The notes under the pieces were generated by a model. It had not been told where the DNA came from. It saw only the letters and a list, made by a program, of their open reading frames with translations, and made no database searches. Both the position numbers and the translations under genes were made by a program. DNA of 37,742 nt from Myxococcaceae bacterium (GTDB lineage: Bacteria; Myxococcota; Myxococcia; Myxococcales; Myxococcaceae). This document shows, in pieces, positions 10,369-26,712 of this stretch (positions are counted from its first letter, which is position 1; every line of letters starts with the position of its first letter). Location: NCBI GenBank assembly GCA_019694595.1, contig JAIBBQ010000040.1, positions 1-37,742 on the forward strand, written 5' to 3'.

Positions 10369-10575
10369 CTAGAAGACGCGATCCTTGTCCTGAACGGTCA
10401 ACCCGAGCGCGAGAATGATCTTCCGCTTGGTGTCGAGCCGGCACGCGGCGCCCTTCTCCACCCGGTCGATGGTCAGCACCGAGACTCCGGCCCGACGGGC
10501 GAGCTCCGCCTTCGAGAGCAACTGATCCTCGCGCAGCGTCTGCACGCGGTTGGTGGCGGGTTTTCGGGGGGACAT
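10369..10575 (-). CDS. Small XRE-family helix-turn-helix regulator
   Basis: 68 residues, almost entirely one Cro/C1-type domain: helices 2 and 3 are SKAELARRAGVSVLTIDRVEKG, and helices 4-5 are LDTKRKIILALGLTV. There is no ligand or dimerisation domain, so it would act as a minimal repressor or activator. The N-terminus is basic. The ATG at 10575 lacks a clear Shine-Dalgarno; a weak sigma-70-like pair (TTGACA at 10611-10616 and AACACT at 10588-10593 on the minus strand, 17 bases apart) would give a very short leader. An AT-rich repeat-bearing region lies upstream at 10635-10674. It sits between pilR2 and pilM, where I do not recall a gene in M. xanthus. Control of pilM-Q or of itself is inference. 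Confidence 0.85.
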   Translation of the reverse strand: MSPRKPATNRVQTLREDQLLSKAELARRAGVSVLTIDRVEKGAACRLDTKRKIILALGLTVQDKDRVF

Positions 10576-12713: not shown

Positions 12714-13817
12714 TCACACCGTCGCCAGGGTGATGGTGAAACACGCCCCACCTTCCGGGTGATTCCTCACCTCCAGGCCGCCTCCCATCGCGGTGAGAAG
12801 ATGGCGCGACACGGCGAGCCCGAGCCCGGTGCCCTGCCCTGCCGGCTTGGTGGTGAAGAACGGCTCGAAGAGCTTGGGCAGCACGTCGGCGGGAACTCCC
12901 GGGCCGCTGTCGCGCAGCTCGAGCGCCGCCTTCCCGTCGCGCACCTCGGCACGCAGCCACAGCCGCCCGCTGCCGTTCATCGCCTGCGCCGCGTTGCGCA
13001 CCAGGTTGATGAGCACCTGGGACAGCGGCCCCACCTCCGCGAGCACCACCAGGCCCGCCGGCACCTCGACCGTGCGCTCGACGCCGCGCAGCTCGGGGCT
13101 CGCCCCCAGGAGCCGCAGCACGTCGTCGACCACCCGCGCCAGCTCCACCGGCGCCGGCTTGCCGCGCGACGGCCGGCCCAGCTCGAGGAGCGAGCGCACG
13201 ATGCCGTCGATGCGCTCGACCTGCACCACCGAGAGGTCGACCAGCTCCTTCGCCTCCGGGTTCACCTTGCCCTTGAGGATCGACAGGTAGCCGAGCAGCC
13301 CGGCCAGAGGGTTTCCCACCTCGTGGGCCACGCCCGCCGCGAGCTTGCCCACCGACGCCAGCCGGTCCGACGACACGAGCTCGGTCTGCGCCCGCAGGAG
13401 CTGGGCGTTCGCGCTGCGCAGCTCGGTGAGCTGGGCTTCCCGCTGCGCGCGCTCGGCGGCGAGCGCGGTGGTGGCATCCTTCAGCGTGCGCGAGATGCGC
13501 GAGACCAGCGGGCCCGAGGGCGCGTCGCCGAAGCCGAGCTGCGGCCGCGCGAGCTGCCCGATGAGCTCGTCGAGCGCCGCCAGCGGGCGACCCACGGTGA
13601 AGAACAGCACCAGGAAGACGAGCGCCGTCGCCCCCAGCACGTCGACCGTGAGGATGACCGGCATCGCCCGCGTCACCCGCAGCACCGCCTCGCCGCGCAC
13701 CGGGTCCACGCGCGCCACCTCGACCAGCGTGCGCACCGCGGGCTGCAGCGACAGCCAGGACAGCCCGGTCGCCGCCGCGCCCAGCATCACCGCGATGGAG
13801 AGCAGCCGTGCGCGCAC
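12714..13817 (-). CDS. pilS2: Membrane sensor histidine kinase PilS2
   Basis: 367 residues. Two TM helices (about 5-22 and 53-74) flank a short periplasmic loop of about 30 residues. Then come a HAMP-like linker, the dimerisation domain with the phosphoacceptor His165 in AAGVAHEVGNPLAGLLGY, and the catalytic domain with N box (LINLVRNAAQAM), G1 (LELRDSGPGVP), F box (KLFEPFFTTK) and G2 (GQGTGLGLAVS). The kinase core looks intact. The GTG at 13817 is chosen because AAAGGAG lies about six bases upstream and the first TM helix starts immediately; longer in-frame extensions run into the divergent gene. By position it is the partner of PilR2. The upstream 112 bases are shared with the divergent GT-C gene and include a small hairpin (CCGGG/CCCGG at 13854-13869). 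Confidence 0.9.
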   Translation of the reverse strand: MRARLLSIAVMLGAAATGLSWLSLQPAVRTLVEVARVDPVRGEAVLRVTRAMPVILTVDVLGATALVFLVLFFTVGRPLAALDELIGQLARPQLGFGDAPSGPLVSRISRTLKDATTALAAERAQREAQLTELRSANAQLLRAQTELVSSDRLASVGKLAAGVAHEVGNPLAGLLGYLSILKGKVNPEAKELVDLSVVQVERIDGIVRSLLELGRPSRGKPAPVELARVVDDVLRLLGASPELRGVERTVEVPAGLVVLAEVGPLSQVLINLVRNAAQAMNGSGRLWLRAEVRDGKAALELRDSGPGVPADVLPKLFEPFFTTKPAGQGTGLGLAVSRHLLTAMGGGLEVRNHPEGGACFTITLATV

Positions 13818-13929: not shown

Positions 13930-15846
13930 ATGCCCACCCGCCTCTCGCCCGCCGTGCTGCGCGCGCTCGAGTGGCTGCTGGTGCTGGGCTGCGTCGCCCT
14001 GGGGACCTGGGTGCGCGTCTGGGTGCCGCTCCACCAGCCCAACTTCCAGCGCGAGCGCCCCGAAGGCATGTTCCGCAGCGACCCGGGCCTCCTCTTCTAC
14101 TTCGTCGAGCGGTTCGTCGAGTCCCACGGGCTGCCCCCCGCCGACCTGCGCGCCGACCCCCGCGTCGAGCACCCGCGCGAGGTCGACCTCCTCACCCTGG
14201 ACACCGTCGGCCAGGAGTTCCTCATCGCCTGGACGCGACCGCTCACCGAGGGCGCGCTGCCGCTCCATCTCCACGCGCTGGGGGTGATGGCGCTCGTCGC
14301 CTCGCTGTCGGTGGTGGGCGTCTTCCTGCTCACCCGCGAGCTCACCCGCTCGCCGTGGTGGGCCGCCGCCGCCGCGCTCCTCTTCACCTTCATTCCCGGC
14401 AACTACCGCACGCTCGGCCTCATCCTCATGCGCGAGGACCTGAGCCTCCCGCTCTTCGCGCTCCACCTCGCCTTCTTCGCCCGCGCGGCGCGGACGCAGG
14501 CGCTGCGCGACGTGGTGGTCTGCGGCCTCGCCGCCGTCGCCTCGCTTGCCACCTGGCACGGCATCCACTTCGTCTTCACCATGGAAGCGGCCTGCCTCGC
14601 CGCGTGGTTCCTGCGCACCGGCGAGACGCCCTTCGCGGCCCGGCGCGCCTGGGTCGCGCTCGCGCTGGTGGTGGTGGGCGCGGTGGTGGTGCCGGTGCTC
14701 GCGCACACCAGCTTCGCCCTGTCCTGGCCCTGTGCGCTCCCGGCCGGCCTGGTGGTCGCCGCCCAGGTGGCCCAGCGCGCTCCGGGCCGCGCCTGGCCGC
14801 CGCGGCTCGCGGCGTTCGCGACCTGGGCCGCGCTGGGCGCGCTGCACAAGGCGATGACCTTCCTCGCGGGCGGCGACGACTACCGCCACGTCTGGCAGCT
14901 GCTCGCCGCCAAGGTGGCCACGCTCGGCGTCCGCCCCGCCGACCCGGACGCCCTGCCCTTCGACGTGCGGCTGATGTGGCAAGGCCCCTTCGAGACCCTC
15001 ACCGCCACCGGCGCGCGCACGCTGCTCGGCGCCGTGCTCGTGCCGCTCGCCGCGCTGCTGGTGCTGGGCGCCGTGGGCTGGGTCCGCCGCCGCGGCAGCG
15101 TGCCGGTGCTGGTACTGCTCGCCTTCACCGGCGCGGCGCTCCTCGGCGCCTGGCTCATCGTGCGCGTCGAGGCGATGGTGGCGCTGCTGTTGCCCGCGAC
15201 CCTCGCCGTCGCGGGCGCCTCGTGGGCCCGGGCGCGCTGGGCGGCGGCGGGCTACGGCGCGCTGCTCGCCTGGCAGCTCGTCACCTTCGTCACCTTCGTG
15301 CGGCACTGTGACATCACCTGGCTGCAGCCGCCGCACGTGCGGGCCGAGTACCAGCGGCTCCTCGCCGCGCTGCCCGGCCTGGTGCCCCCGGGCGAGGCCA
15401 TCGCCTCCGACCCGGTCGACTCCACCACCCTGCTCGCGCACACCCGGCACCCCATCGTGCTCCAGCCCAAGTGGGAGCAGTACGAGAGCCGCGAGCCCAT
15501 CGCCGACTTCCTCCAGGGCTTCTTCCAGGAGAGCCCGGAGCGCTTCCGCGCGTTGCTGCTCGAGAAGTACCGCACCCGCTACCTCCTCATCGACCGGCGC
15601 ATTCTCTGGGTGAACTTCCGCTACGCCGGTGGACTGCCCGAGACGCAGCCCAGCCCCAACCCCGGCACCAGCGCCGAGGTGTTCATGAGCGAGGACCAGG
15701 CCACGCTGGAACAGGTGCCCGGCTACCGGCTGCTCTACCGCTCGCGAGATTCGAACGGGCAGCCCGCCCACGGCGAGGCCGACCTGCTGCGGCTCTACGA
15801 GCTCTCGCCCGAGCCCGTGCCACCGCCGGAGCGCAGCGGCCCCTAG
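13930..15846 (+). CDS. STT3-like GT-C polytopic membrane protein
   Basis: 638 residues with about 11-13 TM helices in the first 460 and a soluble C-terminal domain. Features resemble GT-C enzymes of the oligosaccharyltransferase (STT3/PglB/AglB) type: a first periplasmic loop with RSDPGLLFYFVERFVESHGL (Asp51, like the catalytic Asp after TM1), a second acidic site LMREDLSLPLFALH (Glu169-Asp170), then a TWHGIHFVF helix similar to the TWGG helix of STT3. The C-terminal part has the expected architecture (IASDPVDSTTLLAHTRHPIVL... then YRTRYLLIDRR), but the hallmark WWDYG is absent. It would use a lipid-linked sugar at the outer face of the inner membrane. Acceptor unknown; pilin is a candidate by location. 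Its stop overlaps the pilD stop (shared CTAG, 15843-15846). Confidence 0.8.
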   Translation: MPTRLSPAVLRALEWLLVLGCVALGTWVRVWVPLHQPNFQRERPEGMFRSDPGLLFYFVERFVESHGLPPADLRADPRVEHPREVDLLTLDTVGQEFLIAWTRPLTEGALPLHLHALGVMALVASLSVVGVFLLTRELTRSPWWAAAAALLFTFIPGNYRTLGLILMREDLSLPLFALHLAFFARAARTQALRDVVVCGLAAVASLATWHGIHFVFTMEAACLAAWFLRTGETPFAARRAWVALALVVVGAVVVPVLAHTSFALSWPCALPAGLVVAAQVAQRAPGRAWPPRLAAFATWAALGALHKAMTFLAGGDDYRHVWQLLAAKVATLGVRPADPDALPFDVRLMWQGPFETLTATGARTLLGAVLVPLAALLVLGAVGWVRRRGSVPVLVLLAFTGAALLGAWLIVRVEAMVALLLPATLAVAGASWARARWAAAGYGALLAWQLVTFVTFVRHCDITWLQPPHVRAEYQRLLAALPGLVPPGEAIASDPVDSTTLLAHTRHPIVLQPKWEQYESREPIADFLQGFFQESPERFRALLLEKYRTRYLLIDRRILWVNFRYAGGLPETQPSPNPGTSAEVFMSEDQATLEQVPGYRLLYRSRDSNGQPAHGEADLLRLYELSPEPVPPPERSGP

Positions 15847-16844
15847 AAGCCCATCACGGTGCGCACCGGCCCCACGGGGAGCAGGTCCACCATCACCGGG
15901 CCGAGCAACAGCCACTCCAGCGCCGCCGCCGCGAGCCAGGGACCGAACGGCAGGTTGGTCGCCTCCGGCGTCCACTCCACTTCCTCACCGCCTTCGTCCA
16001 CCGGGTCGTCGGGGATGTTCTGGAGCAGCACCGAGTACGGCACGAGGAGCAGGCGACGGCCGAAGGACAGACCGGGCGCGAGGAAGGCCCAGCTCATCTT
16101 GGGCGGCGCAGGCTCGGGCGGCGGCGGGGCCTGCGGGTCGGCGCTGGCCTCGGGCGCCGTGGGCCCCGCCCGGCCGGTGAGCCACAGCCGCGCGAGACCG
16201 AAGAGCGCGCCCTGGAGCGACGAGAGGAAGACGACCGCCAGGAGCGCCCGCCAGGACAGGAAGGCGCCGATGAGCGCCATGAGGAACTTGTCGCCCGCGC
16301 CCAGCGCTTCCTTGCGGAAGGCGAGCCACCCGAAGAACTCCAGCGCGCGGAACACCAGGTAGCCCAGCACCGCGCCCTTGAGGCCCCCGAGCACCGGCGA
16401 GAGCCCCAGGGGAATGCGCACCAGCAGGCCGAACGCGATGCCCGGCAAGGTGAGCTCGAAGGGGAGGATCCACCGCTCGGCGTCTATGAAGGTGAGCGGG
16501 ATGAGGAAGGTCAGCAGCACCAGGGCCAGCACCAGCGGCCAGTCCCACCCGAAGCGCGCCCACGCGGCGAGGAACAGCAGCCCGGTGAGAAGCTCCACCA
16601 GCAGGTAGCGCGGCGAGATGGGCGTGCCACAGCCACGGCACTTCCCCCGCAGCACCAGCCACGACACCACGGGCACGTTGTCGTACCAGGCGATGGGCTG
16701 CTCGCACTTCGGGCAGCGCGAGCGCGGGGAAACGACGCTCAGCCCTTCGGGCACCCGGGCGATGACCACGTTGAGGAAGCTGCCGATGGAGAGCCCGGCG
16801 AAGAAGAGGAAGCCGACGAAGACCGGTTCCAGGGGCGCGGGCAC
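15843..16844 (-). CDS. pilD: Prepilin peptidase / N-methyltransferase PilD
   Basis: 333 residues. PilD cleaves the short leader of prepilins after Gly and methylates the new N-terminal Phe. The cytoplasmic loop after TM1 has the two zinc-type CXXC pairs (Cys44/Cys47 and Cys69/Cys72). The catalytic aspartates are Asp121 (TFIDAERWILP) and Asp185 in the GxGD motif (LGAGDKFLMAL). It is longer than the roughly 270-290 residues of many PilDs because of a Pro/Ala-rich insert (about 225-250) before the last TM region. Start is GTG at 16844 with a weak AAAGGTG nearby; no better start exists. It lies 47 bases downstream of the GT-C/TPR gene on the same strand. The only prepilin peptidase here, so it should process all three pilins. 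Confidence 0.97.
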   Translation of the reverse strand: MPAPLEPVFVGFLFFAGLSIGSFLNVVIARVPEGLSVVSPRSRCPKCEQPIAWYDNVPVVSWLVLRGKCRGCGTPISPRYLLVELLTGLLFLAAWARFGWDWPLVLALVLLTFLIPLTFIDAERWILPFELTLPGIAFGLLVRIPLGLSPVLGGLKGAVLGYLVFRALEFFGWLAFRKEALGAGDKFLMALIGAFLSWRALLAVVFLSSLQGALFGLARLWLTGRAGPTAPEASADPQAPPPPEPAPPKMSWAFLAPGLSFGRRLLLVPYSVLLQNIPDDPVDEGGEEVEWTPEATNLPFGPWLAAAALEWLLLGPVMVDLLPVGPVRTVMGF

Positions 16845-16891
16845 GACACCTTTCTAGCCGTTGGCGGGGGCGCCGCCACTCTTCCAAGCGC

Positions 16892-19138
16892 TCAGGGCGA
16901 GCGCAGCAGGGCTTCCGACGGCGGCGGCGGCAGCTGGTTCGCTCCGAGCGCCGCGAGCCATTCCGCTTTCCCTGCCGCGCCGTCTTCGAGGGCGGCGATG
17001 ACCTCGCGCGCCCCGGAGAGCTGCCCGCGGCGCACGAGGATCTCCGCGCGCAGGAACGGCGGCCCACTGCCCGAGAGCCGCTCCAGCGGCTGAACGGGGA
17101 ACGGGTGGCCCGGGAAGGCGCCGAAGGCCGCGGCGAGCGATGCACGGGCCTCGTCGTCGCGGCCGGCGAGCGCCAGCGCGCGCGCCTCCCAGTACCGGGC
17201 GAGAGCGAAGTCGGGCACCGCGTCGCGCAACACCCGCGTGGACCCCAGCGCCCGTGCGTGGTCGCCCACCAGCACCTCCCACTCCGCGAGCGCCAGCGAC
17301 GCCGACAGCCGGTCGTGCAGGCGCTCGAGCTCGGCCCGGAAGGGCGACGGCGCGGTGCCGGCGGCCTCGCCGCTCGCCACGCGCGCGGCCAGCGCGGGGA
17401 GCGTGCCCGGCTGGGCCTCGCTCGCCGCGGCGATGAGCGGCGCGGCGCGGGCCGCGTCACCTGCGGCGAGGAAGCAGCGCGCCACCTCGAGGCTGGGCTC
17501 GAGCAGCTGGTCGTACGTCGCGAAGCTCACCCCACTCGCCGTGAGCGCGCGCGCCTCGCCCGCCATCGCCTCGCGCGCGCCGGCGCGCGCGCCCAGCGCC
17601 ACCAGCACCAGCCGCTCGAGCGCGCCCGCGTCGCCGAAGCGCTCGGCGCTGACGGCGCCCGCGGTGCGCGCGAGTTCCGGGGCCTCGAAGTCGAGCCCGC
17701 GGGTGTTCACCTGCCGCAGCACCATCGGCTGTGACGCGAGCATCTCGCCGAGCGTCTTCGCCGCGTCGGCGAAGTGACCGGCGGCGAGCTCGCGCTGCAG
17801 CTGCGGCGCGCGCTGCGAGGACTCGAGGCCGCGGCGTGACCAGGTCGCCGCCGCCTGCACCGGGCCCGCCCCGAAGGCGAGCGCGCCGACGGCGGCCGCC
17901 ACCGCGAGCGGACCTGCGAGCTGCCGGGGCGCACGGCGCGCCGCGAGCGCGAGGTGCACGAGGGCGGCGACCCCGAAGGCGAGCCCCGGCGCAGCGGCGA
18001 TGCGGTAGCGCGAGGTGCCATAGAAGACGACGGTGACCGCGCAGATGGCCACCGCCAGCGCGGCGGCGCCCGCCACTGCGCGGCGGCGCCGTGCGTCGAA
18101 CAGCGCGGCGAGGAGCCCCACGGTCCCCAGCGTGAAGAGCCAGCGGTCGCCGGGCAGCCAGAGTCCGTTCAGCCGGGCATCGAGCAGCCGGGCCTCGGTG
18201 GTGTCGTGGCCCGGAGGCCCGAGCGCGAACAGCACCGCCTTCCAGAACAGGTGGGCGAGCCAGCGCCCGGGGTAGGCCTGCGCGAGCCGCAGCACCTCCA
18301 CGCCCCAGTACGCTTCCTGGGACACCGCGCCGTCGGCGCTCGCCGAGGCCGCCGCGAAGGTGCGGTAGAGCTCGTGCATCTCGTAGCGACCGTGCTGGCG
18401 CTCGAGCATCTTGAGCGCGAAGGGCGACTGCCCGCCGAAGGGCGTGAACTCCGGCCGGTGGCCCATGTGCAGCACGGCGCCCGGGCTCATCGGCGCGGCC
18501 CAGGCGCCCACCGCGGCGTGGGCGAGCAGCTGGCTCACGGCGACGAAGCCCAGCGCCACCACCACCAGCGCCCCCACCACCGCCTTGCGCGACCAGCCAG
18601 CGGCCCACGGCACCGCCGCCGCCACCACCAGCCCCACCGGGCGCAGGCACGCCGAGGCGAGCAGCGAGAGGAGCGCCGCGGCGCGGGAGCGGCGCGTGGG
18701 CTCGAGCGCGAGCCACCACAGCACCAGCGCGTGCAGCGCGCCGATGGCGAGGTCGGGCTCGAGCATCGCCTCGTAGGTCACCCAGCTCGAGGTGAGCCCG
18801 AGCGCGAGCGCGCCCGCGAGGCCGGCGGCGAGGCCCAGCGCGCGCTGGCAGGCGAGCCCCACCGCGAGCACCGCGGCCGCGCCGAGCATCACCTGGGCCC
18901 AGTGCACCGCCTGCGGCGAGAGCAGCGCGTGGAGCGCGAGGTACGCGGGGCTGAAGTCGCCGGCGCGCTGCGAGGCGGCGAAGCCCTGCTCCAGGGCCCT
19001 GGCCGCGTCGGGGTACTTGGTGAAGAGCCAGTCGGGGGCCAGCACCACGGAGAGCGCGGCGTGCGCGGCCGCGACGACGGCCACCGGCCAGCGCGGGCCC
19101 GTGGTTCCCATCGACTCCGAGATCGGCCGTGTCATCAT
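16892..19138 (-). CDS. GT-C-like membrane protein with C-terminal TPR-like region
   Basis: 748 residues. The first 430 or so contain about 10-11 TM helices with features of the ArnT/PMT (GT39-like) fold: an acidic residue after TM1 in LFTKYPDAARALEQGF, EAMLEPDLAIGALHALVLWW after the central helices, and the late motif SRYRIAAAPGLAFG, similar to the RYR..P motif of these enzymes. The C-terminal 300 residues are soluble and helical, with Ala-rich repeats (FLAAGDAARAAPLIAAASEAQPG, LALAGRDDEARASLAAAFGAFPG) resembling TPRs. Probably an inner-membrane glycosyltransferase using a polyprenyl-phosphate sugar, with a periplasmic protein-binding tail. Substrate unknown. The start pair ATG-ATG (19138/19135) is only six bases from the divergent start of the YfhO-like gene. 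pilD follows 47 bases downstream. Confidence 0.72.
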   Translation of the reverse strand: MMTRPISESMGTTGPRWPVAVVAAAHAALSVVLAPDWLFTKYPDAARALEQGFAASQRAGDFSPAYLALHALLSPQAVHWAQVMLGAAAVLAVGLACQRALGLAAGLAGALALGLTSSWVTYEAMLEPDLAIGALHALVLWWLALEPTRRSRAAALLSLLASACLRPVGLVVAAAVPWAAGWSRKAVVGALVVVALGFVAVSQLLAHAAVGAWAAPMSPGAVLHMGHRPEFTPFGGQSPFALKMLERQHGRYEMHELYRTFAAASASADGAVSQEAYWGVEVLRLAQAYPGRWLAHLFWKAVLFALGPPGHDTTEARLLDARLNGLWLPGDRWLFTLGTVGLLAALFDARRRRAVAGAAALAVAICAVTVVFYGTSRYRIAAAPGLAFGVAALVHLALAARRAPRQLAGPLAVAAAVGALAFGAGPVQAAATWSRRGLESSQRAPQLQRELAAGHFADAAKTLGEMLASQPMVLRQVNTRGLDFEAPELARTAGAVSAERFGDAGALERLVLVALGARAGAREAMAGEARALTASGVSFATYDQLLEPSLEVARCFLAAGDAARAAPLIAAASEAQPGTLPALAARVASGEAAGTAPSPFRAELERLHDRLSASLALAEWEVLVGDHARALGSTRVLRDAVPDFALARYWEARALALAGRDDEARASLAAAFGAFPGHPFPVQPLERLSGSGPPFLRAEILVRRGQLSGAREVIAALEDGAAGKAEWLAALGANQLPPPPSEALLRSP

Positions 19139-19144
19139 GGCCCG

Positions 19145-21514
19145 GTGTCACCCGCTCCCATCGTCTCGAGGCGCGAGCTCGCGCTGACCTGGGCCTTCGC
19201 CTGCGCGGCGACGGTGCTGGCCTTCGTGCGGGCGGTGTTCTCGAACGACATCTTCATCGAGCGCGACATCCTGCGGGTCTACTACCCGGCGCACCAGTAC
19301 TGGGCGCAGCGAATCGCCGGCCTGGAGTTTCCCCAGTGGTACCCGTTCGACGGCATGGGGCAACCGTTCGTCGGGGCGGTGGTGACCTCGCCCTTCCACC
19401 CGTTCAACCTGCTGTTCCTGGCGTTCGACTCCGGGGTGGCGCTCAAGGCGGCGATGCTCGCGAGCTACCCCGCGCTCTTCGTGGGCGTGTACCTGCTGGT
19501 GCGCAGCTTCGACGGCCGCCCGATGGCGGCGGCGCTGGGGGCGATGACCGCCGCGTTCAACGGCTACGCCATCGGCATCACCAACAACATGGCGTACCTG
19601 TGGTCGATGGCCGCGGTGCCGTGGGTGTGGCTGTACGCCTCGCGGCTGTTCCGGTCGCCGACCGCGGGCGGGGTGCTGGGCACGGCGGCGGCGCTGGCGC
19701 TGGTGCTCTTCGGGGGCGACAGCCAGAGCTTCGTGGTGGCGGGCGCGAGCGTGGTGGTCTGGTGGGTGGCCGCGCGCTGGGCGCTGGGCGCGAGAACGGG
19801 CTTCGGCTGGCTGGGCGCGGCGCTGGCGCTGGCGGCGGCGCTGGGCGCGGTGCAGCTGCTGCCGGCTTCCCAGGTCTTCCGCGATGCCGACCCGGGCGCG
19901 CAGTCCATCAACGACGCCATGCAGTGGTCGCTGCACCCGATTCGCCTGCTCGAGCTCGCCTTCGGGCCCATCAACAGCTTCGACGCCGCCACGCCCGACG
20001 TGCTCAACCTCTACTACGGGCTCTTCGGGAACAACGGCACCCACTCGCTGTGGGTGAACTCGATTCACGTCGGCGCGGTGGCGCTCGCGCTCTGCGCGCT
20101 GGCGTGCTGGGAGCTGCGCAACCAGCGGCTGATGTTCGCGGGCATCCTCGGCGGGCTGTTCGTGTTCTCGCTGATGCTGGGCCGCTACGGGGTGCTCTAC
20201 GGCGCGCTCTACCGGCTGGTGCCGCTGTGGCGGCCGTTCCGGTACCCCGAGAAGCTGACGCCCTTTCTGCTGTTGCTCGTCGCGCTCGGCGCGGCTGCGG
20301 GGCTCGAGCTGGTGCTGCGCCGGGAAGCGCTGCGCAGCCGGCTGCTGCGCCTGATGCTGGGGGCCGCGCTGCTGGTCGCCGTCGCCGGCGTCGTGGAACG
20401 AACCTGGTCGCCGTACAGCGTGCTCTTGCGCTGGCTGTGGATGGGCACGCCCAAGCCGACCACCCTCGCCACCACCAGCGAGCTCATGGTCGACGGCGCG
20501 CTGGCCACCGCCGGGCAGCTGCTCATCGCCTCGCTGGCGCTCTGGCGCGCGAGCACGGTGAAGCCCGTCGCCGGGCTGCTGGTGGCGCTGGTCTACGGCG
20601 GCCAGGTGCTGGCCAACGAGCACCTCTACTTGCTGGGCATCCCCGAGCTCATCCGCGAGCCGGGCGGCTTCATCAGCCTCATCGACCGGCGGGAACCGAA
20701 CCGCGCGCTCGGCCAGTTCCGGGTGCTCAACATGTCGGGCTCGTTCTTCCTCGGGAAGCTCAACGAGGCGCGCCGGTCCGACGCGCTCTCGGTGGCCACC
20801 ATCACCAAGCTCGACCCGGACACCCCTGGCATCTGGGGCCTGGAGGTGGCGAACGCGTACCTGCCGGCGACCTCGCGCCGCGTGCACGCGATGCTGGAGT
20901 CGACCGGGCTGCCCGTGCAGCGCACCACGTTCCTCTCGAACATCCGGTACATGACGGTGGAAGACCTGTGGTTCGCGGGCCGCCACGGCGCCGCCGCCGC
21001 AGTGGTGGGCGAAGACGGCACGCTGGGCGTGCTGCTGCTCAACAACCCCTACGCCAAGTCACGCGCGTGGTTCTCCCAGCCGGTCTGCGAAGCGAACGCC
21101 AACGTGGTGGGCGCGGCGCTGCGCTACAGCTCGCATTCGCAGGAGCGCACGCCGGTGGAATGCGTGACCCCGCTGCAGGTGTCCGACGGCACCGGCACGG
21201 TGACGGTGCTCGAGTACCGCCCGGAGTCGGTGCTGCTCGAGGTCACCGCGACCAACACCGGCGTCGTGGTGCTCGCCGACCCGTACTACTCGGGCTGGTC
21301 GGCGACGGTCGACGGGGCGCCGGCCGACGTGCTCGCCGCGAACCTCGCCTTCCGCGCGGTGGCGGTGCCGGGCGGAAAGCACGAGGTGCACTTCACCTAC
21401 CGCACCCCACTGCTCGCCGAGGGTGCGGCGACGAGCCTGCTGAGCCTGATCCTGGCGATCGCGCTCGTGCTGCGCGCGGCGCGCCGGCCGCCACCTGCGC
21501 TCGCGTCGGCGTGA
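19145..21514 (+). CDS. YfhO-like GT-C membrane protein
   Basis: 789 residues with about 12-13 TM helices in the first 480 plus a last one near the C-terminus (LLSLILAIALVLRA). The first loop has SNDIFIERDILRVYYPAHQYW, then FPQWYPFDGMGQPF, TSPFHPFNLLF and FNGYAIGITNN, which together resemble the YfhO family (putative lipid-sugar-dependent glycosyltransferases that decorate surface polymers). The C-terminal ADPYYSGWSATVDGAPADVLAANL is the typical YfhO ending, a beta-rich extracytoplasmic domain before the final helix. The start is GTG at 19145 because it gives a short basic N-terminus before TM1; no ATG is available. It is divergent from the other GT-C gene with only six bases between start codons and lies 221 bases before pilin 1. 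Substrate unknown. Confidence 0.82.
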   Translation: MSPAPIVSRRELALTWAFACAATVLAFVRAVFSNDIFIERDILRVYYPAHQYWAQRIAGLEFPQWYPFDGMGQPFVGAVVTSPFHPFNLLFLAFDSGVALKAAMLASYPALFVGVYLLVRSFDGRPMAAALGAMTAAFNGYAIGITNNMAYLWSMAAVPWVWLYASRLFRSPTAGGVLGTAAALALVLFGGDSQSFVVAGASVVVWWVAARWALGARTGFGWLGAALALAAALGAVQLLPASQVFRDADPGAQSINDAMQWSLHPIRLLELAFGPINSFDAATPDVLNLYYGLFGNNGTHSLWVNSIHVGAVALALCALACWELRNQRLMFAGILGGLFVFSLMLGRYGVLYGALYRLVPLWRPFRYPEKLTPFLLLLVALGAAAGLELVLRREALRSRLLRLMLGAALLVAVAGVVERTWSPYSVLLRWLWMGTPKPTTLATTSELMVDGALATAGQLLIASLALWRASTVKPVAGLLVALVYGGQVLANEHLYLLGIPELIREPGGFISLIDRREPNRALGQFRVLNMSGSFFLGKLNEARRSDALSVATITKLDPDTPGIWGLEVANAYLPATSRRVHAMLESTGLPVQRTTFLSNIRYMTVEDLWFAGRHGAAAAVVGEDGTLGVLLLNNPYAKSRAWFSQPVCEANANVVGAALRYSSHSQERTPVECVTPLQVSDGTGTVTVLEYRPESVLLEVTATNTGVVVLADPYYSGWSATVDGAPADVLAANLAFRAVAVPGGKHEVHFTYRTPLLAEGAATSLLSLILAIALVLRAARRPPPALASA

Positions 21515-21680: not shown

Positions 21681-21696
21681 AGGCACGCGCGTTGCT
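21681..21696 (+). promoter_or_regulatory. Sigma-54 promoter of pilin 1
   Basis: AGGCAC, five bases, then TTGCT: the GG (21682-21683) and GC (21694-21695) are separated by exactly ten bases, as sigma-54 requires, and the flanks fit the TGGCAC-N5-TTGC(A/T) consensus. Transcription should start near 21707, leaving a leader of about 30 bases with GGAGG. The distance from the -12 GC to the ATG is identical (41 bases) to that at pilin 3. In M. xanthus pilA is sigma-54 and PilR dependent. Confidence 0.85.
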
Positions 21697-21735: not shown

Positions 21736-22362
21736 ATGATTCGCAAACTCACGAAGCGCGGCTTCACGCTCATCGAGCTCATGATCGTCGTCGCCATCAT
21801 CGGCATCCTCGCCGCGATCGCGATCCCCAACTTCATCCGCTTCCAGGCCCGTTCGAAGCAGAGCGAGGCGAAGAGCAACCTGAAGTCGTTCTTCACCGCC
21901 GAGCGCTCGTTCTTCCAGGAGAAGGACAAGTACTCCGAGCTCACCAAGGACGTCGGCTTCACCCCGGAGCGCGGTAACCGCTACTACTACGCGGTCAGCA
22001 CCGCGACCATCGACCCCCGCACCGCGGTGACCACCGGCACGGCGACCAACTACACCGCCATCTCGGTCGACACGTTCAAGTACACCTCGGCCGTCTCCAC
22101 CCCGACCATCGTCACCATCACCCCGTCGTTCGCGTCGACCGGTGGCACCAACCCGGGTAACCCGGGCCTCGCCGGCACCTGCCCGGACTGCAACATCTCC
22201 GCGTACGCGGCCGGCAACGTCGACAACGAGACCGGCGGCATCGACACCTGGTTCATCGCCACCAAGGACGCCACCATCACCGCCGTCTGCGGCAACTCCG
22301 ACACCGCTGCGGTCGCCGGCACGCCGTTCAACGTCTACAACGACGTCAACTGCGGCGACTGA
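21736..22362 (+). CDS. pilA: Type IV pilin, copy 1
   Basis: 208-residue prepilin. Leader MIRKLTKRG is cut before Phe10; the mature N-terminus [20 protein letters not shown] is the canonical helix with Glu5. The stretch [20 protein letters not shown] matches myxobacterial PilA. The globular part is Thr/Ser-rich (TTGTATNYTAISVDTFKYTS) and carries four cysteines (149, 152, 185, 206). Three N-X-S/T sites exist: Asn105, Asn153 (within DCNIS) and Asn164. ATG 21736 has AAGGAGG nine bases upstream, a sigma-54 promoter, and an intrinsic terminator after the stop, so it is a complete single-gene unit. It differs from copy 2 by one residue (Val200 versus Thr). Confidence 0.97.
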   Translation: MIRKLTKRGFTLIELMIVVAIIGILAAIAIPNFIRFQARSKQSEAKSNLKSFFTAERSFFQEKDKYSELTKDVGFTPERGNRYYYAVSTATIDPRTAVTTGTATNYTAISVDTFKYTSAVSTPTIVTITPSFASTGGTNPGNPGLAGTCPDCNISAYAAGNVDNETGGIDTWFIATKDATITAVCGNSDTAAVAGTPFNVYNDVNCGD

Positions 22363-22382
22363 AGTCGCAGCCTCCGCTGTGA

Positions 22383-22411
22383 GAGGTCGACTCTTCGACC
22401 TCGGGTTTTTT
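22383..22411 (+). terminator. Intrinsic terminator after pilin 1
   Basis: Eight-base-pair perfect stem GAGGTCGA/TCGACCTC (22383-22390 with 22395-22402), four-base loop CTCT, then GGG and six T residues. This is a textbook Rho-independent terminator 20 bases after the pilin 1 stop and should largely separate pilin 1 transcripts from pilin 2. Confidence 0.9.
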
Positions 22412-22593
22412 CCCACCTCCGCGGCGACCTCATCGAGGCGCCGCGGAGGTGTGGTCTTTCAGGGGTAAGCGTCTGAGGGGTTGTGCAACACGATCGCGCG
22501 CCGTGAGGCGTTTTCCACGGAGGGCGCGTGACCCATTCGCAGCACGCCGAAGTTCACCGGCGCCACACCAGTTCCACTAGGGAGGTAGCACAC

Positions 22594-23220
22594 ATGATCC
22601 GTAAGCTGACCAAGCGTGGTTTCACTCTCATCGAGCTCATGATCGTCGTCGCCATCATCGGCATCCTCGCGGCGATCGCGATCCCCAACTTCATCCGCTT
22701 CCAGGCCCGTTCGAAGCAGAGCGAGGCGAAGAGCAACCTGAAGTCGTTCTTCACCGCCGAGCGCTCGTTCTTCCAGGAGAAGGACAAGTACTCCGAGCTC
22801 ACCAAGGACGTCGGCTTCACCCCGGAGCGCGGTAACCGCTACTACTACGCGGTCAGCACCGCGACCATCGACCCCCGCACCGCGGTGACCACCGGCACGG
22901 CGACCAACTACACCGCCATCTCGGTCGACACGTTCAAGTACACCTCGGCCGTCTCCACCCCGACCATCGTCACCATCACCCCGTCGTTCGCGTCGACCGG
23001 TGGCACCAACCCGGGTAACCCGGGCCTCGCCGGCACCTGCCCGGACTGCAACATCTCCGCGTACGCGGCCGGCAACGTCGACAACGAGACCGGCGGCATC
23101 GACACCTGGTTCATCGCCACCAAGGACGCCACCATCACCGCCGTCTGCGGCAACTCCGACACCGCCGCGGTCGCCGGCACGCCGTTCAACACCTACAACG
23201 ACGTCAACTGCGGCGACTGA
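22594..23220 (+). CDS. pilA: Type IV pilin, copy 2 (tandem near-duplicate)
   Basis: 208-residue prepilin, same leader MIRKLTKRG and the same mature protein as copy 1 except Thr200 for Val200. At DNA level the first 33 bases carry eight synonymous third-position differences, whereas the remaining almost 600 bases carry only four differences (one near the end of the N-helix coding region, three in the last 50 bases). ATG 22594 has GGGAGGT upstream. Unlike copies 1 and 3, no GG-N10-GC sigma-54 element occurs at the expected distance or elsewhere in the 180 bases before the ATG. A terminator follows the stop. It may be expressed by a different sigma factor, by read-through, or act mainly as a sequence donor (inference). 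Confidence 0.96.
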   Translation: MIRKLTKRGFTLIELMIVVAIIGILAAIAIPNFIRFQARSKQSEAKSNLKSFFTAERSFFQEKDKYSELTKDVGFTPERGNRYYYAVSTATIDPRTAVTTGTATNYTAISVDTFKYTSAVSTPTIVTITPSFASTGGTNPGNPGLAGTCPDCNISAYAAGNVDNETGGIDTWFIATKDATITAVCGNSDTAAVAGTPFNTYNDVNCGD

Positions 23221-23328: not shown

Positions 23329-24186
23329 ATGAAAGCCTGGATCGCGCTGCTCCTGAGCCTGGCCGCCGTCGTCGCGCTGAGCCGCCCGCCCGAGGCGAAG
23401 GCTGCCGGCGAGACGGAGCCCCCCCTGCTCCCTCGCCCGGAGGTGATGCAGGTGCTGGGGGCATTCGACCGCCCACTCTTCGCCGACTACTTCTGGCTGA
23501 TGACGATCCAGCAGATCGGGCTGGCGCAGAAGGCGGGGGAGTACCGCGCGGTCGCCGACTACGCCCGCCTCGCGGTGGCGCTGGACCCCGACTTCCGCGA
23601 GGTCTACCGCGTGGCCGGGCTGTCGATTCCCTTCAACCTGGGCCGCGAGAAGTGGGTGAACACCGAGGAATCGACGGCCATCCTCGCCGAAGGGGTGGCG
23701 CGCTTTCCCGACGACCCCCGGCTGGGCATTCCGTACGCGTACAACCTAAGCTTCTTCCACCGGCAGTACGAGCGGGCGGGCGAGATCCTCGGCCGGCTCG
23801 CCAAGCGCCCGGGCGCGCCGCGCTACCTCGGGCAGCTCTCGGCGCGTCTGTACGCCATGGTGGGCCGCTTCGACGACGGGCTCGAGCTCACCCGCAGCCT
23901 CGCCGCCGAGGCGAGCGACCCCGAGTCGCGCGCGCTCTTCGAGGAGCGCGCCCGGGAGCTCGAGCAGGAGCGCCTGCTGCGGGAGATCGAGGTGGCGTGC
24001 AACCGGTTCGCCGAGCGCTCGGGCCGGCAGCCCGCGGCGATGCTCGAGCTGGTCGCGGCCGGCGACCTGCCCGGCCTGCCCATCGACCCGCTGGGCGGCG
24101 ACCTCACGCTCGAGAACGAGTGCAAGGCGCGCAGCTCTTCCCGCTCGCGCCGCTTGAAGGTGTTCCTGCCCCATGTCGACGACTGA
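23329..24186 (+). CDS. pilI: Exported TPR-like protein of the pilGHI group
   Basis: 285 residues from ATG 23329 (a GTG one codon earlier is also possible). N-terminal signal or anchor MKAWIALLLSLAAVVALSRP, then a largely helical protein with TPR-like units (YRAVADYARLAVALDPDF, GVARFPDDPRLGIPYAYNLSFF, RQYERAGEILGRL, RFDDGLELTRSLA), ending in a basic Ser/Arg-rich tail. The stop overlaps the start of the ABC ATPase gene by 14 bases. The symbol is given by gene order only: in M. xanthus pilG-pilH-pilI lie between pilA and pilD, the ABC ATPase is PilH, and this is the member on the pilD side. The PilG and PilI names could be exchanged. Function in pilus export is not defined by sequence. Confidence 0.6.
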   Translation: MKAWIALLLSLAAVVALSRPPEAKAAGETEPPLLPRPEVMQVLGAFDRPLFADYFWLMTIQQIGLAQKAGEYRAVADYARLAVALDPDFREVYRVAGLSIPFNLGREKWVNTEESTAILAEGVARFPDDPRLGIPYAYNLSFFHRQYERAGEILGRLAKRPGAPRYLGQLSARLYAMVGRFDDGLELTRSLAAEASDPESRALFEERARELEQERLLREIEVACNRFAERSGRQPAAMLELVAAGDLPGLPIDPLGGDLTLENECKARSSSRSRRLKVFLPHVDD

Positions 24187-25150
24187 ACGAGCCATGACCA
24201 CCGCGGCGATCCAGACCATCGGGCTGTCGAAGACGTACACCCTGGGCTTCCTGATGAACCGGCGGGTCAAGGCGCTGCAGTCGCTCGACCTCACGGTGCA
24301 GCCGGGGCAGATCTACGGCGTGCTGGGCCCCAACGGCGCCGGCAAGTCGACCACGCTCAAGCTGCTGCTCGCCCTGGTGAAGCCCACCAGCGGGCGCGCG
24401 CTCATCTTCGGGCACCCCGCCGGGTCCAAGGCGGGGCGCGCGGAGGTGGGCTTTCTCCCCGAGAACCCGGCGCCCCACGACTACCTCACCGGCCGGGAAT
24501 TCGTGCGCATGTGCGGCCAGCTGCGCGGCCTGTCGGGGGTGGAGCTCGACCGCGAGGTCGACCAGGCGCTGGCGCGGGTGGAGATGACCCGCACCGCGGG
24601 TCTGGCGATTCGCCGGTACTCCAAGGGCATGGTGCAGCGGGTGTCCCTGGCGCAGTCGCTGCTCGGCAAGCCGAGGCTGCTGATCCTCGACGAGCCGAGC
24701 TCGGGGCTCGACCCGGTGGGCCGGCGACAGTTCCGCGACCTGGTGCTGGAAGAGAAGGCGCGCGGCGCGACGGTGATGCTCTGCACCCACATCATTCCCG
24801 ACGTGGAAGCCATCTGCGACCGGGTGGCGGTGCTCGTGGGGGGCCGGCTGGTGAAGGAAGGGCCGCTGAGCGAGCTGCTGGTGAGCGAGGCGGCGGAAGT
24901 CGAGCTCACGCTCGAAGGGGTCGACGCCGAGGCGGTGCGCGCGGCGTGCCCGGCGCAGGCCCACCTGACGACCGCGGCGGGGCGCGTGCTGGTGCGCACC
25001 AGCGCCGAGTCGGGCACCGCGCTGGTGGGCGCCATGCTCCAGCGCGGCGGGCGGCTGGTCAGCTACACGCCGGTGAAGCACTCGCTGGAGCAGCTGTTCC
25101 TGTCCACGCTCGAGAGCGAGCGCGGCGCGGTGGGAGGAGACCTCACGTGA
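24173..25150 (+). CDS. pilH: ABC transporter ATPase PilH
   Basis: 325 residues: one nucleotide-binding domain of about 230 residues plus a C-terminal domain. Walker A GPNGAGKST (52-60), Q-loop region GFLPENPAPHDYLTG, signature YSKGMVQR (149-156, a variant of LSGGQ common in ABC-2/NatA-type exporters), Walker B LLILDEP (169-175), D-loop SSGLDP and switch His in CTHIIPDVEAICDRV. PilH is reported as an ABC homologue required for pilus formation in M. xanthus. The ATG at 24173 overlaps the previous gene and has AAGGTG ten bases upstream; ATG 24194 is an alternative start. The stop overlaps the permease start as GTGA, so the two are translationally coupled. Confidence 0.9.
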   Translation: MSTTERAMTTAAIQTIGLSKTYTLGFLMNRRVKALQSLDLTVQPGQIYGVLGPNGAGKSTTLKLLLALVKPTSGRALIFGHPAGSKAGRAEVGFLPENPAPHDYLTGREFVRMCGQLRGLSGVELDREVDQALARVEMTRTAGLAIRRYSKGMVQRVSLAQSLLGKPRLLILDEPSSGLDPVGRRQFRDLVLEEKARGATVMLCTHIIPDVEAICDRVAVLVGGRLVKEGPLSELLVSEAAEVELTLEGVDAEAVRAACPAQAHLTTAAGRVLVRTSAESGTALVGAMLQRGGRLVSYTPVKHSLEQLFLSTLESERGAVGGDLT

Positions 25151-25917
25151 TCGGTCAGCTGGCGGCCATCGCCTGGAACGGGTTCCGCGAAGCCCGGCGC
25201 AACCGGGTGACCATCGTGGTGGCGATCTTCGCGGTGGTGCTGATGCTCGCGACCGCGCTCATCACCGAGCTCACGGTGACCACCTTCCGCCGGGTGGTGA
25301 TCGACTTCGGCCTCGGCTCGATGACGCTGCTGCTGGTGGTGCTGGCGGTCTTCCTCTCGACCGGCCAGCTCTCGAAGGAGATCGACCGCCGCACCATCTT
25401 CCTGCTGGTCACCAAGCCCATCGGCCGCGGCACCTTCGTGGTGGGCCGGCTGCTCGGCACCATCCTCACCGTGTCGGTGCTGCAGGCGGCGATGGGCGCG
25501 CTCTTCTTCATCGAGCTCGGCCTGGTGGGCGAGAGCGTGGGTGCGGCGCAGGTGCAGGCGGTGGCGATGCTCACGTTCGAGCTCATGATCCTCGCCAGCA
25601 TCGGCACGCTGATGGCGACCTTCGCCGAGACGCTCACCTCGGTGATGGTGACCGGCAGCGTCTTCCTCGCCGGGCACCTCTCGTCCGACCTGTACCTGAT
25701 GGCCAGCAAGGCGAAGGCGCCGGCCATCAAGCTCGCGGGCCAGGTGGCGTACTGGCTGATTCCCAACCTCTCGCGGGTGAGCTTCCGCAGCCAGGCCACC
25801 TACGACCAGGTCTCATCGGGGGAAACCCTGCTCTCGGCCGCGGGCTACGCCCTGGTGTGGGTCGCGTTTTCCACGTGTGCGGCAGTCATCGTCTTCCAGC
25901 GGCGCGACTTCAAGTAG
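25147..25917 (+). CDS. pilG: ABC-2 type permease of the PilH transporter
   Basis: 256 residues with about six TM helices (for example TIVVAIFAVVLMLATALI, LGSMTLLLVVLAVFLSTG, SVLQAAMGALFFIELGL, and a last one ALVWVAFSTCAAVIVFQRRD). The layout and the cytoplasmic KEIDRRTIFLLVTKPIGRGTFVVGR segment are characteristic of ABC-2 permeases, where this stretch couples to the ATPase. GTG start at 25147 overlaps the PilH stop by four bases, with GGAGGA seven to nine bases upstream. A homodimer with two PilH subunits is likely. The symbol pilG is assigned because it is the group member next to pilA; the biochemical substrate is unknown. Confidence 0.7.
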   Translation: MIGQLAAIAWNGFREARRNRVTIVVAIFAVVLMLATALITELTVTTFRRVVIDFGLGSMTLLLVVLAVFLSTGQLSKEIDRRTIFLLVTKPIGRGTFVVGRLLGTILTVSVLQAAMGALFFIELGLVGESVGAAQVQAVAMLTFELMILASIGTLMATFAETLTSVMVTGSVFLAGHLSSDLYLMASKAKAPAIKLAGQVAYWLIPNLSRVSFRSQATYDQVSSGETLLSAAGYALVWVAFSTCAAVIVFQRRDFK

Positions 25918-26091: not shown

Positions 26092-26712
26092 ATGCGTTCG
26101 ATGGTCAGGGGTTTCACGCTGATCGAATTGATGATCGTGGTGGCGATCATCGGAATTCTCGCCGCCATCGCGATTCCCAACTTCATCAGGTTCCAGGCGC
26201 GCTCGAAGCAGAGCGAGGCCAAGAGCAACCTGAAGTCGTTCTTCACCTCGGAGCGCGCGTTCTTCCAGGAGCGCGACAAGTACAACGAGATCGTGAAGGA
26301 AGTCGGCTTCTGGCCGGAGCGCGGCAACCGCTACTACTACGTCGTCAACAGCTCGACGATCGACGCGCGCACCGCGGTCACCTCGGGCACCGCGACCAAC
26401 TACACCGGCTACTCGGTGGACACGTTCAAGTACTCGTCGGCGGTGTCCACCCCGACCATCTCCACCGTCACCCCGTCCTTCACCTCGACGGGCGGCACCA
26501 ACCCAGGCAACCCCGGCCTCGCCGGCACCTGCCCCGACTGCAACATCTCGGCGTACGCGGCGGGCAACGTGGACAACGAGACGGCGGGCATCGACACGTG
26601 GTTCGTCGCCACCAAGGACGCCACCATCACCGCCAACTGCGGCAACTCGGACACCGCGGCGGTCGCCGGCCAGCCGTTCAACACCTACAACGACGTGAAC
26701 TGCGGCGACTGA
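26092..26712 (+). CDS. pilA: Type IV pilin, copy 3 (diverged)
   Basis: 206-residue prepilin with leader MRSMVRG before Phe8 and the same canonical N-helix with Glu5. The rest is clearly homologous to copies 1 and 2 but diverged in the middle ([40 protein letters not shown]); the four cysteines and the DCNIS site are kept, and the last 25 residues are nearly the same ([14 protein letters not shown]). ATG 26092 is chosen: it has AGAGGAG eight bases upstream and the exact promoter spacing of copy 1; an ATG at 26068 would lie in the leader. It is the copy next to pilR, the position of pilA in M. xanthus, so it may be the ancestral locus. Confidence 0.96.

Follow-up and report, generated by a model that had tools for sequence, protein, structure and literature searches.

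Predicted GT-C glycosyltransferases within a myxobacterial pil cluster suggest a variable pilus-glycosylation module

Three genes within the pil cluster of a Myxococcaceae bacterium encode predicted periplasm-facing GT-C glycosyltransferases, which on balance probably form a lineage-specific pilus-modification module, and for which we infer the donor, the pilin substrate, the linkage and one shared target. The window, that is the whole stretch of 37,742 nucleotides analysed (contig C100), derives from a 7.28-Mb genome (99% complete, 0.3% contaminated), and its gene content is that of a myxobacterial pil cluster. On the minus strand, pilQ, P, O, N, M, pilR2 and pilS2 are followed by GTC1 (+), pilD (-), GTC2 (-) and the YfhO-like gene (+), the last of which lies directly upstream of pilA1 in the same direction; pilA1, pilA2, pilG, pilH, pilI and pilA3 (+) and then pilR, S, C, T and B (-) complete the order. 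The three polytopic, enzyme-like proteins that an earlier, sequence-only reading had placed between pilS2 and the pilins were reproduced exactly by a codon-model gene caller, as was pilD:

12714-13817, minus strand: pilS2 sensor kinase, divergent from GTC1 (Pfam HisKA, HATPase_c; start by the gene caller)
13930-15846, plus strand: GTC1, predicted DPY19-like GT-C glycosyltransferase, 638 residues (Pfam Dpy19, AlphaFold, Foldseek, family profile)
15843-16844, minus strand: pilD prepilin peptidase, among the GT-C genes (Pfam A24_N_bact, Peptidase_A24)
16892-19138, minus strand: GTC2, predicted PMT/ArnT-like GT-C domain with C-terminal TPR helices, 748 residues (AlphaFold, VIA-align)
19145-21514, plus strand: predicted YfhO-like GT-C protein, 789 residues (Pfam YfhO; weak NCBIfam PgfM1/PgfM2; full-length homologues)
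21681-21696, plus strand: sigma-54-like -24/-12 element 5' of pilA1, AGGCACGCGCGTTGCT, one mismatch; such matches occur window-wide at chance frequency, so that position alone speaks for it
21736-22362, plus strand: pilA1 major pilin (CPDC-NIS; NCBIfam typeIV_PilA_Myxo, E 1.9e-64, under the model's curated cut-off)
22594-23220, plus strand: pilA2, a copy almost identical to pilA1
23329-25917, plus strand: pilG, pilH and pilI (TPR protein, ABC ATPase, permease)
26101-26712, plus strand: pilA3, 88% identical to pilA2; start approximate

The assignment of pilH as an ABC ATPase follows NCBIfam, and pilG and pilI were named by the gene order kept in relatives. Both flanks of GTC1 consist of pil genes that neighbour each other in relatives, which makes a chimeric assembly unlikely. 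The pilA1/pilA2 tandem is a recent duplication. Within it (21736-23220), a terminator-like hairpin stands behind each of the near-identical copies. Between pilM and pilR2, a 68-residue helix-turn-helix protein is encoded (10369-10575, minus strand), and small helix-turn-helix-like genes are also present in other Myxococcia pil loci, for example at L103:13220-13417 and L121:5174-5479. Neither a sugar-activating enzyme nor a flippase was found among the genes of the window.

GTC1 had been proposed to be an STT3-like protein. Rather, it scores above the cut-off of the Pfam Dpy19 profile (PF10034; 2.5e-7, 29.7 bits, cut-off 27.2), and several of its planctomycete relatives do so clearly, one with 55.0 bits, whereas the STT3 family (PF02516) found no match anywhere in the window's genome in a search with positive archaeal controls. 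The AlphaFold model of GTC1 (pLDDT 89.5, pTM 0.90) retrieves CeDPY19 first in Foldseek (E 1.9e-14, TM 0.73-0.75), followed by STT3, AglB and PglB, and in VIA-align CeDPY19 (Z 30.1, 577 residues, rmsd 3.2) is level with STT3 (Z ~30). A family profile of nine members retrieves CeDPY19 with an E-value of 1.1e-12 and STT3B with just 0.023; single-sequence searches against PDB chains gave no match for GTC1, GTC2 or the YfhO-like protein. The alignment of nine family sequences reveals invariant D51 (EL1), R160, E169-D170 (EL2), W209-H210, H320 (EL5), K328, R347, WQGPF (350-354), R412, D494, K514 and E516. CeDPY19 R211 and R471, which together with E71 serve catalysis and phosphate binding (PMC10154233), align with R160 and R412 of GTC1 in the well-scored part of the family profile alignment, whereas E71 aligns with D51 in a weak, separate segment. 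E71 is essential in CeDPY19, but an E71D variant retains most activity and human DPY19L4 has Asp at this position (PMC10154233). The WWDYG motif is absent from GTC1 and from all nine aligned sequences, in which the first metal-site Asp of STT3 (EL2) is also substituted. Thus, with the Dpy19 profile, the fold and the aligned catalytic residues in agreement, GTC1 is, by sequence and model, a bacterial DPY19-like enzyme, and the missing STT3 profile match and WWDYG motif rule out a classical STT3. By inspection of the sequence, the EL5 region (about 317-356) contains no Cys, and the EL5-dome disulphide that is conserved in C-mannosyltransferases (PMC10154233) is absent; we therefore name GTC1 DPY19-like rather than a C-mannosyltransferase.

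Among 195 Myxococcota genomes, single-protein searches returned no clear relative of GTC1 and the nine-relative profile retrieved the window alone. Weak matches were dropped in two genomes, G161, where the protein looks like an RND-type transporter, and G134, where the match is short and unrelated, and the Dpy19 match of a GT-C-like protein in G186 is confined to a C-terminal stretch. A search of 294 Planctomycetota genomes found relatives in 8 of them; the eight sequences that were aligned show 35-42% identity, and the neighbourhoods viewed contain no pil cluster. Absence from other Myxococcota together with relatives in Planctomycetota suggests that GTC1 was acquired horizontally. At two planctomycete loci, the neighbours considered as lipid-sugar genes are conserved transhydrogenase genes; at L135, also from a planctomycete, a Wzy_C ligase-TPR fusion is located two genes upstream of the DPY19-like gene (L135:7380-9557, plus strand). 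The part of the literature that we searched, which is open access, yielded no report of a bacterial DPY19 or of GT-C genes in myxobacterial pil loci.

The AlphaFold model of GTC2 (pLDDT 86.2) bears out the proposal of an ArnT/PMT-like protein with a TPR-like tail, in that a PMT/ArnT-like GT-C domain (residues ~10-440) precedes TPR helices (~456-738). In VIA-align, residues 10-440 superimpose on Pmt4 (Z 23.3, rmsd 3.0, 297 residues) and on ArnT (Z 19.5, rmsd 4.0, 283 residues) and also match PMT1-PMT2, while residues 465-738 match TPR proteins. Foldseek by itself is weakly informative on GTC2, since matches to the TPR helices fill its list, and the family profiles comprise weak TPR matches alone in Pfam and none in NCBIfam, with no significant PMT match. 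Across the class, 18 further genomes encode relatives of GTC2. These adjoin pilD in G091 and G125, and comparison of contig positions places them away from pil genes in most Myxococcus-like genomes. The confident models of both GTC1 and GTC2 match GT-C enzymes that depend on lipid-phosphate sugars.

The YfhO-like identity of the third protein also stands, with a match to Pfam YfhO (PF09586; 1.5e-10, 40.6 bits versus 28.5) that covers the C-terminal part only, in an upstream-extended frame, as well as weak NCBIfam PgfM1/PgfM2 matches. Full-length relatives are numerous: 94 of 145 genomes contain matches, often more than one each, and at least 16 other genomes have copies no more than ~10 kb away from pilD, several adjoining pilA or pilD. 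The tree of these proteins contains a pil-specific clade in one group of genus g5 and cannot be explained by fewer than four switches between pil-linked and other positions; YfhO-like genes were thus probably recruited to pil loci more than once. The GT-C type claimed for all three proteins is thus supported by fold for GTC1 and GTC2 (AlphaFold and PDB comparison) and by profile for the third. Of the enzymes proposed for structural comparison, ArnT, like Pmt4, indeed resembles GTC2, whereas GTC1 is nearer to CeDPY19 than to PglB in Foldseek.

From relatives in the class, we extracted 79 stretches of at most 20 kb surrounding pilD or pilA, of which 57 are true pil loci by gene content; stretches of 20 kb leave out genes that lie further away. 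Extra large polytopic proteins, falling into ~25 sequence clusters, are encoded between pilA, pilI, pilR and pilD in many Myxococcia pil loci. Of 49 large polytopic non-pil proteins scanned, 14 match PMT_2, nine match YfhO and two are AglB-like by AglB_L1, both of the latter also matching archaeo_STT3 (4e-47 and 9e-39) below NCBI's cut-off. AglB_L1 matches occur in 30 of 145 genomes and lie at most 9 kb from pilD in five (G003, G020, G069, G123, G127); profile comparison gave no support for a close kinship of GTC1 with the AglB-like proteins. Some of these loci additionally encode WecE (above NCBI's cut-off), WbqC, an AglJ-like GT2, WecG or an initiating sugar-phosphate transferase. Examples from the pil loci of relatives are:

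L096:7272-9467 (-), L098:1060-3399 (-) and L176:1-1809 (+): AglB-like, oligosaccharyltransferase-type proteins
L069:339-2176, L071:17670-19519 and L123:18151-19985: WecE (dTDP-4-amino-4,6-dideoxygalactose transaminase) and a WbqC-family gene beside GT-C genes, in three genomes; WecE confirmed in L069, the L071 and L123 copies recognised by eye
L114:10378-12201 (-) and L125:1611-3524 (-): membrane sulfatase-superfamily proteins, possible phosphoethanolamine-type transferases

As controls, we chose by hand 40 windows of 20 kb, at set fractions along long contigs in 20 of these genomes. Among the families listed for 15 control proteins of matching size and topology, 25 of 27 in all, there was no GT-C family; those listed were transporters and other non-glycosyltransferases. 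A large polytopic gene of any kind is present in 24 of 57 pil loci and in 12 of 40 control windows, a difference that is not significant (p 0.29), and the two sets differ only in the kind of gene. Genome-wide, PMT_2 proteins number about nine per genome, or about one per Mb. In one clear case, pilin type and GT-C genes switched together: the core genes of G030 nest among GT-C-bearing g5 species in the core-gene tree, its locus is without GT-C genes and its pilin groups with GT-C-free 198-residue pilins. The pilins of g2 group with the GT-C pilins of g7, whereas its core genes group with g5. Collectively, the sequences suggest a variable pilus-glycosylation module, for which relatives would use different enzymes of like kind.

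It is possible, though rather unlikely, that the GT-C enzymes instead decorate another envelope polymer, such as O-antigen, exopolysaccharide or a secreted protein, with the pil locus being merely a tolerant insertion site. Indeed, Gram-positive bacteria use YfhO and PMT_2 enzymes to modify teichoic acids and the glycans of their cell walls (PMC8035078), and WecE, WbqC and WecG are typical of polysaccharide loci. Moreover, occurrence away from pil loci, which the sequence-only reading had raised against a pilin-directed role, is the case for most relatives of GTC1 and GTC2, whereas some YfhO-like copies are pil-linked, as described above. Such an insertion site would, however, have to accommodate unrelated GT-C genes beside pilA, pilD and pilI in several Myxococcia families, and neither the coupled switch of pilin type and GT-C gene content in G030 nor the control windows without GT-C Pfam matches would be expected. 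The same three observations, the recurrent genes being non-orthologous and accompanied by sugar genes, support a pilus-glycosylation route encoded in part at the locus, as had been hypothesised, although not its N-linked form.

The DPY19-like nature of GTC1 raises the prospect, which we regard as quite unlikely, that a bacterial enzyme of this type attaches a sugar to a type IV pilin or another exported protein through carbon or in some other unusual way. In its strict form, GTC1 would be a tryptophan C-mannosyltransferase acting on Trp163 of the pilin or on another exported protein, as might be expected from CeDPY19 being its best Foldseek and profile match, from the conserved catalytic residues and from the tolerance of CeDPY19 to E71D (PMC10154233). 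We consider this very improbable, given that the EL5-dome disulphide is missing and that the window pilins lack WxxW and WxxC, which led us to reject C-mannosylation at such a pilin motif. Furthermore, the M. xanthus counterpart of the Trp163 segment presumably also has Trp, in a locus type without GTC1, our statements on M. xanthus resting on locus type, papers and general background.

As noted previously, D-C-N-I-S, N-Y-T and N-E-T are present in all three window pilins, which are rich in Ser/Thr (21-22%). Two of the three are near-identical copies, however, so that the shared D-C-N-I-S is not independent conservation. The pilin bodies contain 3-4 N-X-S/T sites each, compared with 2.8-3.4 in shuffled sequences, and at least one D/E-X-N-X-S/T arises in 23-28% of shuffles; thus, the window sequons are not above chance. 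Compared with pilins from relatives' pil loci, D-C-N-I-S is restricted to the window, where it comprises the second half of the CPxC motif (CPDC) and a trailing Asn, Asn144 of the mature pilin; GT-C-free loci likewise encode pilins with Asn directly after CPxC, an example being G036 (CPGCNIS). The second Cys of this motif in myxobacterial pilins is surface-exposed and unreactive in M. xanthus (PMC11046646). The window pilins retain the CPxC Cys, and the modification suspected in M. xanthus might itself be a sugar or a lipid.

Pilins were compared between 27 GT-C-bearing and 27 GT-C-free loci, the former called by size, topology and position and including several proteins without a Pfam GT-C match, so that the comparison is equally loose. 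With p-values that ignore kinship, pilins of GT-C-bearing loci are shorter (191 versus 202 residues, p 8e-5), contain more Ser/Thr (17.5% versus 15.4%, p 0.02) and have fewer N-X-S/T sites (1.04 versus 1.52, p 0.05); the sole Pfam matches in two members of the GT-C-bearing set, G080 and G104, are to a sulfatase or methyltransferase. In kinship-corrected tests over seven independent core-tree pairs, none of length, Ser/Thr or sequons is significantly associated with GT-C presence, length and Ser/Thr keeping the same direction (4.4 to 0.8 and 4.3 to 1.2, respectively). N-glycosylation at D-C-N-I-S by an STT3/PglB-like oligosaccharyltransferase, to which the sequon in all three pilins and the STT3/DPY19 fold of GTC1 (VIA-align Z ~30 to both) had pointed, is thus dropped as the leading idea and appears highly improbable, since the sequons are at chance level, overlap CPxC, show no tie with GT-C presence and are if anything fewer where GT-C genes are present, and since the genome has no STT3-family match and GTC1 has neither WWDYG nor the first EL2 metal-binding Asp.

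We therefore return to a pilus-modification module, for which multi-component transmembrane glycosylation systems provide a model of the order GT2, flippase and GT-C enzyme (PMC8035078). By this analogy, a GT2 enzyme encoded elsewhere in the genome would make a polyprenyl-phosphate sugar, a flippase would turn it over, and each GT-C enzyme would most likely move one sugar from the polyprenyl-phosphate carrier to the pilin before pilus assembly or, alternatively, extend a sugar already bound to the pilin. The window would supply the last step alone, namely sugar transfer in the periplasm. Acceptor, sugar and linkage are inferred as well, and the sugar would probably be attached by an O-linkage within the Ser/Thr-rich globular domain and not by an N-linkage at D-C-N-I-S.

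If this is correct, pilus glycosylation would be a widespread and changeable myxobacterial trait, carried out by enzymes unlike TfpO and TfpW. Myxobacterial pili power social motility, and in Pseudomonas pilin glycosylation guards against pilus-specific phages, which makes phage pressure a plausible driver in myxobacteria as well. A DPY19-like enzyme from a bacterium that retains the catalytic residues would offer a bacterial system for chemistry so far described only from animals and alveolates and, if the carbon-linked reading were true, would extend this chemistry beyond them.

The PMT/ArnT-like domain of GTC2 followed by TPRs is reminiscent of PMT/ArnT (GT39/GT83) enzymes and of TMTCs, whose architecture is a PMT-like domain plus TPRs, but GTC2 differs from the former in having no significant Pfam PMT match. 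GTC1 shares with the DPY19 C-mannosyltransferase CeDPY19 the fold, the catalytic acid, the phosphate-binding arginines, the EL5 D-x-H motif and the C-terminal dome, yet it is bacterial, has Asp for Glu at the catalytic site, lacks the EL5-dome disulphide and resides beside pilins without the WxxW/C of DPY19 acceptors; C-mannosylation itself is restricted in the literature to metazoans and alveolates (PMC12990085). Archaeal AglB has likenesses in the pil loci of relatives, namely the AglB-like proteins with DGDSYYHL or DGDSLYHL and DHH motifs, but none in the window; the WWDYG motif of these proteins is degenerate and the pilins adjoining their genes in G003 and G123 contain no N-X-S/T, raising the question of what role an oligosaccharyltransferase has beside a sequon-free pilin. 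The window's YfhO-like protein is similar in its C-terminal part to YfhO and PgfM1/PgfM2, and the Pgf proteins of Streptococcus mutans modify adhesins rich in Thr (PMC5856776); the window's protein is distinct in belonging to a Gram-negative pil locus and in having no PgfS-like partner in the window. The closest working parallel is provided by the pilin-accessory cassettes of Pseudomonas aeruginosa, in which a pilin-type-specific glycosyltransferase gene, tfpO or tfpW, lies beside the pilin gene, TfpW being a GT-C enzyme (PMC11841053). In contrast to these cassettes, the GT-C genes of the window are not downstream of the pilin, and the myxobacterial loci employ different GT-C families, up to three per locus, scattered over the pil cluster.
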